Assembly: GCA_014376435.1 (NCBI GenBank)
Contig: JACMRL010000003.1
Span: 62,001-126,000, forward strand
Direction: 5' to 3'
Length of the DNA: 64,000 nt
DNA from: Bdellovibrio sp.
GTDB lineage: Bacteria > Bdellovibrionota > Bdellovibrionia > Bdellovibrionales > Bdellovibrionaceae
In this document: positions 11,584-62,904 of the stretch, piece by piece
How positions within the stretch are numbered: the first letter of the stretch is position 1
How the letters are laid out: the number at the start of each line of letters is the position of its first letter
The notes under the pieces: generated by a model
What the model was told of the DNA's origin: nothing
The model's database searches: none
Seen by the model: only the letters and a program-made list of their open reading frames with translations
Program-made: the position numbers and the translations under genes

Positions 11584-12123
11584 CTAAGCAGAAGCATCAG
11601 CTCCGCAACATTTTTTATATTTTTTTCCACTGCCGCACGTGCAAGGATCATTACGCCCAACTTTAGGTGCTTCACGTACCACAGTTTCAACTTTTGCATG
11701 ATGATGTTGATGTGTTTCGCCCGCGCGATGCGTATGCGATTCACCATCTACGAATAGCCATTGGCCATCGTCACCTTTACGAAATTGCGCTACCTCATGA
11801 TGATCTAGGCCTTCGCCATTATAATCATAAGTTGCCACGAATTCGACGGTACCTTTTTTATCTTCAGCCGTACCTTTATCCGTAGATAAAATTTGTAAGC
11901 CTTTCCAATCTGCTTTTTGTGCCCACTCACGTGTACTTTTCATATCGAAATCAGTACGTGATTCAGGAGCGATTGTTTTTTTAATATATTCAATATCGGT
12001 TTCAACATAAGCCGAATATCTTGAACGCATTAATTTTTCAGCGGTCATAGGTTTTGCAGTGCCTTTTAGATAAGGCTCGCAGCACTCGCTAAATTCTTGA
12101 TTTGATTTACATGGACATTTCAT
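11584..12123 (-). CDS. YchJ-family SEC-C motif protein (UPF0225)
   Basis: 179 residues. An N-terminal [16 protein letters not shown] and a C-terminal [17 protein letters not shown] are both SEC-C zinc motifs like that of SecA. Between them lie the NTF2-like region and MRSRYSAYV, conserved in YchJ proteins. A His-rich linker ([14 protein letters not shown]) precedes the last motif. Function of YchJ is not established; zinc binding is expected. A short gene follows upstream at 12126, probably co-transcribed. Confidence 0.85.
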
Positions 12124-12125
12124 AT

Positions 12126-12374
12126 TTAAGATTCTTTTGTTTTTAATTTATCGTCGTTAGCCGCGATAAAACTTTTTAGCTCTTCAGTAATTCCTAATAA
12201 CTTTAACCATTGCTCTTTGTACAAAGTAACGGGAAAGCGGCCCATACCGTAAACTGACAATGCTCCCTTTTCGCTAACCTTCATTGATAAAGTTCCGCGA
12301 TCAGCTTTTTTGCTTTTTAAAGCTTCGTTTTCGGCGCGTAGTCGTTCTAATTCTGCTTTCATATCATCTGACAT
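12126..12374 (-). CDS. Small coiled-coil-start protein, conserved hypothetical
   Basis: The ATG at 12374 is preferred because AGAGG lies a few bases upstream; the longer frame starting at 12410 has no site. About 82 residues: an N-terminal coiled coil ([19 protein letters not shown]) and a compact beta-rich segment [19 protein letters not shown] followed by a helix. That second part resembles a small domain seen across bacteria with no known function. It stops 3 bases before the YchJ start and both are likely one transcript. Confidence 0.65.
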
Positions 12375-12452: not shown

Positions 12453-13274
12453 TTAAGGGATGGCCCATTTGGTTTTCAGGTAACTTTCAAGTTGGCCACG
12501 CTCGGTATCGTCGATTAGTTTGTTATAGATAATTAATTCGGCAAAATAGCCGTTCATAAAGTAATTACCGGCTACCCAGTTACCCATGTAAAAACGGGAT
12601 TCAGAAAAATCGTTGATTGAAGTATCACGGTAAATTGCATTTCCAACGTATTGTCCATCCACGTAAAGATCGGTTTGATTATGAGCCTGGTCGTTCTTAA
12701 CGGTAAAAATGTGTGCCGAGGTTGTTGAAGGAAAAATTGAATTACTAAATGGATTTTCCCCACTGTCGCCCGTGTTCCAATGAATTTTACTTCCTAAAAA
12801 ATAAATATCTGGGCCGTGGCCATAATGAACGGTATTAAATGTAAAAGGAATTGCTCCGTCGAATACATTTAACTGGATAACAAAAGTTATAGTTAAAGTG
12901 CTATTAATTGCATGATGAATATCTGCGGTCATCACATCATTCACTCCATCAAAGCGAACCGCAGTGTGTCCGTTGATTGCATTTGTTTGAAGGTTAGGTC
13001 ATTTATTCGCGGCAGCTTGTAGCATTGAAACGGCGGAATTATTTTTATCTTTCCAATCAGCAACGGCTCCATTGGCGATGGTCATAGTAGTTAAATCGGC
13101 CGCATCAAACCAAGTATGCAATGATGAAATTTATGGAGGCGTAAATACGATTGGTGTTGGAATTGGGTTCAGCGGTGGATCAGCCGTCAATGAAGGCGCG
13201 TGACCTTCACCTTTTCCGCAGCCAAAAAACAATGCGCTCGTAAAAAATAGTTATAAAAAAATGCCCAATTTCAT
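12453..13274 (-). pseudogene. LamG/concanavalin-like lipoprotein gene with three in-frame stops
   Basis: Read from the ATG at 13274, 274 codons stay in one frame to the stop at 12453. Three stops interrupt it: TAA at 13253-13251 inside the signal peptide, TAA at 13133-13131 and TGA at 13001-12999. There is no frameshift. The signal peptide ends in a lipobox (FFGC), then comes a Pro-rich linker, then a lectin-like fold: WFDAADL, VRFDGVND, HIFTVKND, DLYVDGQY and YFAELIIYN. This is the LamG/laminin-G-like arrangement of secreted surface lipoproteins. From the last stop on, 163 codons form an uninterrupted C-terminal part. Confidence 0.75.
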
Positions 13275-13487: not shown

Positions 13488-13805
13488 ATGAAAAATTTGA
13501 TGATCGCTTTCGTAACCATTTTAGTTAGCGTAATCGGTTTAGCACAAACAACAAGCGCCGGTTCTGCAGGCGGTGCAACTTCTACTGGAGCTGTAGGTGG
13601 AACCGCGGGAAGCGCAGTTCCATCGACGACTGGTAATCCAAATGTAGGCACAACTGGTTCCGGTACAATCAACGACACAATGAATACGACGAATATGCCA
13701 AAGTCTGTGACTGCAAAACCGCGTGGAACACGTAAGATGGGAACGGACGGAACAGGTACAACAAATACCAATAGCCGCGGAGTAAGCGGAGATCGTTCAT
13801 ACTAA
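13488..13805 (+). CDS. Secreted Gly/Thr/Ser-rich small protein
   Basis: 105 residues with signal peptide MKNLMIAFVTILVSVIGLAQ. The mature part is low complexity, dominated by Gly, Thr, Ser and Ala (for example GGATSTGAVGGTAGS), then a basic patch (KPRGTRKMG) and NTNSRG. Such composition is expected in an unstructured extracytoplasmic protein. A GAAGGGAATTTT ribosome site lies before the ATG and a strong bidirectional terminator follows. Function unknown. Confidence 0.65.
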   Translation: MKNLMIAFVTILVSVIGLAQTTSAGSAGGATSTGAVGGTAGSAVPSTTGNPNVGTTGSGTINDTMNTTNMPKSVTAKPRGTRKMGTDGTGTTNTNSRGVSGDRSY

Positions 13806-15117: not shown

Positions 15118-15558
15118 TTAAAATAAAAATGCATCAACCGAATAAAAACCGGGACCCAGAAGAATGATCGCAAATAATATTGCCGATAAGTTAATGGTAT
15201 ATTCGTTTCATGGTGGCGTATTTGTGATGAGATAACCGCCACCTTTGTGACCAATTAATCCAGCTACGATCATCGTGACCAAGCAAAGGGTTGCACCCAC
15301 GCGAGTTAGTAACCCTAAGATAATTAAAATACCACCGACAACTTCGCAGAGCATGGCCATGCGGGCTTGCGCAGCCGCAAAAGGTAATCCTAAACTTTTT
15401 AACCAGCCTTCAAAGCCGGCCATTGATCCTTGCCCTACGATTCCTAATTTTCCTAAACCGTGGATGACAAAACAAACTCCAATAAAAATACGTACAACTA
15501 AAGTTGCGATATTAAATAATTCAGGCGTTGTTTCAAAAAATACTGCGTGTAAATTCAT
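15118..15558 (-). pseudogene. DoxX family membrane protein interrupted by in-frame TGA
   Basis: A 147-codon frame, the same length as the intact DoxX gene at 16019, but codon 117 is TGA (15210-15208). Upstream are three helices with VVRIFIGVCFVIHGLGKL, typical DoxX. The stop falls in the conserved TPP-stop-NEYTINL segment, where relatives have Gly (PPGNEY), so a GGA-to-TGA change is likely. After it the frame runs to LLGPG and a final TAA at 15120-15118. The truncated 116-residue product would lack the last helix. Confidence 0.7.
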
Positions 15559-36123: not shown

Positions 36124-36546
36124 ATGGCAACAACCACAACAACGACCATGGGACAAACTCGTGCGTCGAATGAAGCAGCAAACCGTAAAATGTACTGGGG
36201 TATTGCAATTGCGATCATCGCAGCTTTAGCAATTATTTTTGCAACTCGCGCATCACGTAATGACGTAGTGACTGAAAGCACAACAACAACGGCTCCAGCT
36301 ACGGTTACTGATACAGCTCGTACGACAACAACGGCTCCAGCTACGATTACTAATACAGCTCGTACGACAACAACTGATTCAACAATTCCAACAACAGATG
36401 GCGCAGCCGCTGGTGGAGTAAATGCTGGCGCAGCTAGAAATGAATCAAATGGTTACAACGTTGATAACGGAACTATGGATTTGAAAAATCAGCCGAATGA
36501 TCGTTTAACAACGCCAAACGCTGCTAATCCAAACCCAAGCAAATAA
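36124..36546 (+). CDS. Thr-rich one-helix protein with tandem 14-residue repeats
   Basis: 140 residues. The N-terminus is MATTTTTTMG, then a helix (MYWGIAIAIIAALAIIFATRA), then an Ala/Thr-rich outer part with TTTTAPATVTDTAR repeated twice in near-identical form and a third partial copy. The tail is Asn/Gly/Pro-rich. It looks like an anchored, unstructured extracytoplasmic protein. AAAGGAGAT is a good ribosome site. A smaller relative with a broken start lies at 35239. Confidence 0.65.
   Translation: MATTTTTTMGQTRASNEAANRKMYWGIAIAIIAALAIIFATRASRNDVVTESTTTTAPATVTDTARTTTTAPATITNTARTTTTDSTIPTTDGAAAGGVNAGAARNESNGYNVDNGTMDLKNQPNDRLTTPNAANPNPSK
36283..36366 (+). repeat. Two tandem 42-base repeats inside the Thr-rich protein gene
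   Basis: Bases 36283-36324 and 36325-36366 are nearly identical 42-base units (14 codons), differing at two positions (GGTTACTG versus GATTACTA). A third partial copy follows. This is a likely site of repeat expansion and contraction. Confidence 0.85.
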
Positions 36547-36570
36547 TTTTTTAGTAAATTTTTTGTTATT

Positions 36571-36597
36571 AAAGCCCACCAACAGGTGGGCTTTTTA
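36571..36597. terminator. Bidirectional intrinsic terminator
   Basis: AAAGCCCACC-aacag-GGTGGGCTTT is a perfect ten-pair stem with T-rich flanks on both strands, between the Thr-rich protein and the broken glutathione peroxidase gene. Confidence 0.9.
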
Positions 36598-36603
36598 CTT
36601 TAT

Positions 36604-37007
36604 TTAATCTTTAAGAGCTAATTCGATCGCTTGAGTAATGATTGGATCATCCGGAGTAACATCTGGTCCAAAGCATGCCACAACTTCACCTTTTTTATTA
36701 ATTAAAAATTTTCCAACTTCCACAAAATATCATTTTTTTGTGTACGATTAATACCATAGCCTTTCAGCTTTTCTTCGAACGCGATGGCGTTAACTTGTTG
36801 AGCTTCTGTTTTTTCATTTGTTAAATGTTTGTATAGCGGATGCTGACTTTCGCCTTTGACCACGATTTTTTCAAGTGCTTCGTATTGCGGAGTTAAACCA
36901 CAAGCAAAAGCAACGTTTACAACTAATAAGGCTTTACCCCGATAGTCAGCCAGGTTAATTGCAGAGCCATTAATTTTATCAACAGGAAGGTGAAAGATTG
37001 AACTCAT
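36604..37007 (-). pseudogene. Glutathione peroxidase gene with internal deletion and frameshift
   Basis: The ATG at 37007 opens with YRGKALLVVNVAFACGLTPQYEALE, the N-terminus of GPx. The next residues jump to GESQHPLYKHLT, so about 45 residues between the two (the GFPCNQFGGQEPGTN region) are missing in frame. Near 36715 the frame breaks after NDILW; the continuation GKFLINKKGEVVACFGPDVTPDD to TAA 36606-36604 is in another frame. The catalytic Cys is retained but the Gln/Trp sites are gone. The intact gene is at 59067. Confidence 0.75.
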
Positions 37008-62550: not shown

Positions 62551-62563
62551 ATGGTGGAGGCGG
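62551..62563 (-). repeat. tmRNA copy of the 13-base direct repeat
   Basis: ATGGTGGAGGCGG, identical to 61432-61444. See the note at that copy. Confidence 0.6.
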
Positions 62564-62904
62564 GGGGAATCGAACCCCCGTCCGTAAGAAATCCACAGAA
62601 AGGCCCTACATACTTAGTTCTTGTTTTAATTTACCTACGCAGCCTCCAAGAACAAAATCAGCGTAGGCATATCCACAGAAACTCTTAATCTTTCAGTCTG
62701 CAGACAGCCCTGAAAAACGATTCGGCATTAATTACGAAACTTGAATCAACACCGACGACTCACCCAAGTTCCGAAAGCGGCAATTAAGCTGCTAAAGAGT
62801 AACTATCGTTAGATAGTAAAAGTTTGAATGTTTTTATCGAGGTCCTCATTCTCCCCGGTATGCTCCTCTTGCTTCATGTCCCACGTCGAAGCCAGGTCGC
62901 CCCC
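62552..62904 (-). ncRNA. ssrA: tmRNA (transfer-messenger RNA)
   Basis: The 5' end GGGGGCGACCTGGCTTCGAC (from 62904) and the 3' end GGTTCGATTCCCCCCGCCTCCACCA (to 62552, CCA encoded) pair as the alanine-tRNA-like domain of tmRNA. The tag reading frame ends AAC GAT AGT TAC TCT TTA GCA GCT TAA, that is NDSYSLAA, probably preceded by a resume codon TCT (Ser) after TACTA. It frees stalled ribosomes with SmpB. The last residues SLAA differ from the usual ALAA. About 353 bases, normal length. Confidence 0.95.

Follow-up and report, generated by a model that had tools for sequence, protein, structure and literature searches.

Loss of a gene through nonsense changes alone is common in Salmonella. According to excerpts of the survey by Kuo and Ochman (2010; PMC2916853), 346 of 378 pseudogenes carry one inactivating mutation and 32 of 378 carry more, and nonsense changes account for 131 of the 346 single-hit cases. 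In-frame stops have also been reported in bacterial genes with dN/dS below 1, usually as evolutionarily short-lived states, as described in part of the study by Belinky et al. (2021; PMC7918605). The tightness of stop codons has been quantified with an E. coli reporter in rich medium at four temperatures, for which the portion of the source used here gives mean values of 0.01–0.05% of wild type for TAA, the tightest stop, and 0.21–7.23% for TGA (PMC11126739).

The locus analyzed here lies in a 64,000-nt stretch of a Bdellovibrio sp. draft genome (GCA_014376435.1, contig JACMRL010000003.1, positions 62,001–126,000; hereafter the window). It resembles the Salmonella nonsense pseudogenes of those excerpts in having early stops, a recognizable gene and intact neighbors, although it carries three hits where most of them carry one (PMC2916853). 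Like the in-frame stop genes under selection, it has stops inside an otherwise conserved frame, but the stops in the available part of that study are common to several species, whereas we found no orthologue of this LamG gene among the genomes searched (PMC7918605). We consider it likely that the frame represents an accessory lipoprotein gene that became a pseudogene recently, with the following features:

12453..13274, minus strand: LamG (Laminin_G_3) lipoprotein frame with internal stops, 273 codons followed by a terminal TAA
13218..13274, minus strand: putative signal peptide and lipobox, residues 1–19, Cys at residue 19 (read by eye from the translation)
13251..13253, minus strand: in-frame TAA, codon 8, inside the putative signal peptide
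13131..13133, minus strand: in-frame TAA, codon 48, variable column at the domain start
12999..13001, minus strand: in-frame TGA, codon 92, variable column (relatives mostly Q, R, K, E)
12504..12938, minus strand: PF13385 Laminin_G_3 core match, residues 113–257 (Pfam)

The first-pass annotation had described a lipoprotein frame with three internal stops and no frameshift, without naming its strand. The frame stands as described and lies on the minus strand from 13274 to 12453, where it starts with ATG, continues for 272 more codons and ends at TAA; its three internal stops are inactivating mutations, as expected of a pseudogene. The other five frames of 12453–13274 contain 17 and 24 stops on the minus strand and 16, 18 and 17 on the plus strand, and if stops arose as often as in the wrong frames of 39 ORFs picked from the window, chance would give 21.6 per 273 codons versus the 3 seen (P for three or fewer, ~4e-7). 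The interrupted frame has a codon score of 0.276 per codon, within the range of the 39 window ORFs (0.175–0.441) on which the score was also trained, and its third-position G+C (0.35) is close to their mean (0.34); the composition of the gene is native. A family profile aligns residues 31 to 271 unbroken, which bears out the absence of a frameshift, with the qualification that seeding the profile from the window LamG protein partly builds in the missing gaps.

Translated across its stops, the gene agrees with the layout of the first-pass annotation in its linker and LamG domain and, as judged by eye, in its lipobox. The putative signal peptide, in which codon 8 is a stop, ends in ...SALFFGC, of which LFFGC is presumably the lipobox, read by eye; it is followed by a proline-rich linker and a domain that belongs to PF13385 Laminin_G_3, scoring 32.6 bits (E 1.1e-7) where the curated Pfam cut-off is 27.6. 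An AlphaFold2 model, built with only 6 sequences in the alignment, has a mean pLDDT of 37, too low to serve as evidence on a jelly-roll fold.

To place the protein in its family, we used 62 distinct relative domains, picked by similarity to the window LamG protein, a choice that favors that protein; the matches listed from the two genome samples described below are 22–39% identical to the query. It keeps 15 of the 18 conserved columns (at least 75% of the others agreeing) and ranks 38 of 63, mid-set and tied with six others. The codon 48 column is most often occupied by S, D, T, A, Q or G in relatives, and the six commonest residues at the codon 92 column are Q, R, K, E, A and S. Both stops thus fall at variable columns, a pattern that fits random hits or errors and is unlike that of a specially decoded residue. 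Within the genus, G009 alone among 13 other genomes has a match to the LamG protein (E up to 0.001, 22–34% identity). In wider samples, 15 of 146 genomes besides the source have matches at E up to 0.001, and 38 of 367 do at E up to 1e-6, all of them distant; the two samples overlap and number 147 and 368 with the source genome itself. LamG lipoproteins elsewhere in the order or phylum (such as L004, L009, L014 and L084; 23–29% identical to the window protein) likewise have a signal peptide that ends in a lipobox-like Cys, judged by eye, followed by one LamG domain, but their frames, unlike that of the window gene, have no internal stop. The TAA listed in another relative, L085, is a normal gene end.

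The genes around the frame are intact:

12126..12374, minus strand: downstream neighbor, a conserved and intact 82-aa protein of unknown function, syntenic in genus member G007
11584..12123, minus strand: YchJ/SEC-C protein, intact, syntenic in G007
13488..13805, plus strand: intact glycine-rich protein that looks secreted by eye; a protein similar by eye adjoins the same locus in G007

At the syntenic locus, G007 has an opposite-strand DUF4142 gene where the LamG gene would be and no significant trace of LamG (best E 1.2), indicating that the LamG gene is accessory. From this comparison, the gene may have been gained in this lineage or lost in G007, which it fits equally. A mobile origin was considered and rejected: the plasmid collection gave no match to the gene (E up to 1e-5), repeats near the locus are short or weak, and the four relatives of the protein on viral contigs are distant. 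The locus has 3 promoter-like and 2 terminator-like sites, where shuffled sequence gives means of 5.4 and 1.7, so that neither kind exceeds chance.

Among the three explanations first offered for this frame, the evidence most favors a very young pseudogene, and stop readthrough and a silent copy repaired by recombination have both lost ground. The case for a young pseudogene draws on the coding signal within the range of the 39 ORFs, the 15 of 18 conserved columns kept, the position of the domain stops at variable columns, the patchiness of the gene in the genus, the other broken genes of the same genome, and the frequency of nonsense-only loss in Salmonella. On this reading, the gene would be accessory and specific to its lineage, would have encoded a LamG-domain protein that is exported and anchored by lipid, and would recently have lost its function. 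Selection would have been relaxed before the stops appeared, the stops would be real in the DNA of the cell, and the inactive gene would have gathered three nonsense substitutions and, so far, no indel. With only seven residues translated before the first stop, no protein would be exported.

The annotation had also argued that random decay normally brings frameshifts. This is partly right, in that the Salmonella excerpts put nonsense alone at 131 of 346 single-hit pseudogenes, a fraction that gives ~5% when cubed (PMC2916853). In a simple model, 3–4% of random substitutions in the LamG frame are nonsense, and three stops imply ~73–88 substitutions. With indel rates assumed at 0.03–0.2 per substitution, the probability of no frameshift by the third stop is 0.5–24%, varying with indel rate and mutation spectrum, and it becomes 0.3–5% when no missense change is allowed at 18 chosen columns; at these, the window protein departs from the family consensus in one. 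Homopolymer runs of 6–7 T in the gene, likely indel hot spots, are still in frame. Three nonsense changes with no frameshift under neutral decay are therefore mildly improbable, and somewhat lucky, but not strange. A reader who looks for legible frames meets stops-only cases first, since a frameshift makes a gene harder to follow by eye. A conserved frame of this kind could also belong to a reversible "off" allele, with nonsense changes kept or recurring in the population; expression could then return if the stops mutated back, or if an intact allele were acquired from another strain by exchange. We regard this as highly improbable.

Readthrough of the stops, whether low-level or regulated, would yield some full-length lipoprotein. 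The TGA of the LamG frame is followed by C, which we take to be a leaky context. In-frame stops under purifying selection are on record in bacteria, in the available part of Belinky et al. (PMC7918605), but two of the three stops here are TAA, and the E. coli rates, as given in the portion of the source used, fall below ~2e-8 when multiplied across all three (PMC11126739). The decoding machinery found in the same assembly points the same way. RF2, which reads both TAA and TGA, is present and has an SPF motif, and its gene prfB (L168, from 810) retains the programmed +1 frameshift site CTT-TGA-C; an ArfB-like protein is present as well. TAA and TGA are the normal terminators of 130 of 179 ORFs of at least 300 aa, the other 49 ending in TAG. 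Each of the 31 tRNAs read carries an ordinary anticodon, none of them complementary to a stop codon, in an incomplete list (150 of 213 candidates scored) that contains no tRNA-Ile, and all 18 tRNA-Sec matches are below the cut-off, most of them at the places of ordinary tRNAs (150 of 222 candidates scored). Judged by the genes found, stop decoding is ordinary: among the tRNA candidates scored we saw no suppressor or selenocysteine tRNA, and the release factor that the three stops call for is present. The release factor, the tRNAs, the stop usage and the multiplied inefficiency of three stops together contradict readthrough, which we consider very unlikely.

Two narrower forms of alternative decoding were rejected. 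Selenocysteine at the TGA is disfavored by the lack of a tRNA-Sec above the cut-off among the 150 candidates scored and by a codon 92 column that favors Q, R, K, E, A and S rather than Cys. Recoding of TAA or TGA is disfavored by the presence of RF2 with its frameshift site, by the tRNAs read and by terminal stop usage. RF1 (prfA) was not found in the assembly, which is 90.75% complete; since TAG ends 49 of the 179 long ORFs, its gene probably lies within the missing 9%, absent through an assembly gap. Elsewhere in the genus, three RF-1-domain genes occur in each of 11 genomes and one in each of the other 2.

A silent cassette repaired by recombination would need a near-identical donor, and a search of the genome for an intact close relative had been proposed as a check. 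That search returned no donor: within the assembly (90.75% complete), the protein search finds only the gene itself (E up to 10), and the next-best DNA match is 22 bases (E 0.025). The genome does have four other Laminin_G_3 genes, which would speak for a cassette, but they are beyond the reach of the LamG protein search and appear too distant for recombination. Repair of this kind is extremely unlikely.

The strongest competitor of the young pseudogene, although itself improbable, is a consensus error or strain mixture in the draft assembly, in which case the cell would carry an unbroken gene, with the stops being wrong or minority bases. The assembly is a draft of 42 contigs at 90.75% completeness with further single-stop interruptions, and stops alone with conserved columns intact are what substitution errors would produce; three nonsense errors in 819 nt, however, would require a local cluster of errors. 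We looked for comparable cases in 464 kb (the window and 20 further stretches, ~17% of the genome) containing 409 ORFs of at least 100 aa, counted as coding-like only. As an all-frame scan of codon score was too noisy, the scan was limited to gaps between solid ORFs, and among its 46 candidates, 45 of them judged by eye and 10 stretches read more closely, no other matches this frame in score and stop count within one recognized domain gene. Pfam searches with six pieces of five interrupted genes gave a match across the stop in three. These are a DoxX-family gene (window 15118–15558, minus strand), in which the frame goes on for 29 codons past a TGA at 15208–15210 and the DoxD profile spans the stop; an IS-type transposase with an internal TGA (L118, 174–1316); and a trypsin-like gene (L129, 14802–15332; profile positions 1–150 of 220) that is interrupted by a TGA and lacks its 3' end. 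An interrupted frame at L134, 9505–9981, has no Pfam match. A glutathione peroxidase remnant (window 36511–37007, minus strand) covers only profile positions 2–45 of 108, and a piece in another frame looks by eye like the end of the gene, with no Pfam match. Substitution errors would leave unexplained both this gene without its middle and the trypsin-like gene without its 3' end. Nonsense-only and structural breaks thus both occur in this genome, in a scan aimed at stop-interrupted frames, from which their ratio is not derivable.

As a probable young pseudogene, the LamG case matters little alone. It records that an accessory surface protein was probably lost not long ago, and illustrates that a gene broken only by stops need not imply recoding.

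Two further observations were made along the way. Genus member G005 has, near a contig end, a DUF1993 paralogue (L063, 1501–1980) with two in-frame TAA codons. In the window, ARAGORN assigns the tag AAFGTWVSRRC to a tmRNA at 62552–62904 on the minus strand; just upstream lies ...NDSYSLAA followed by TAA, a usual tag ending, and the program probably took the wrong tag frame.
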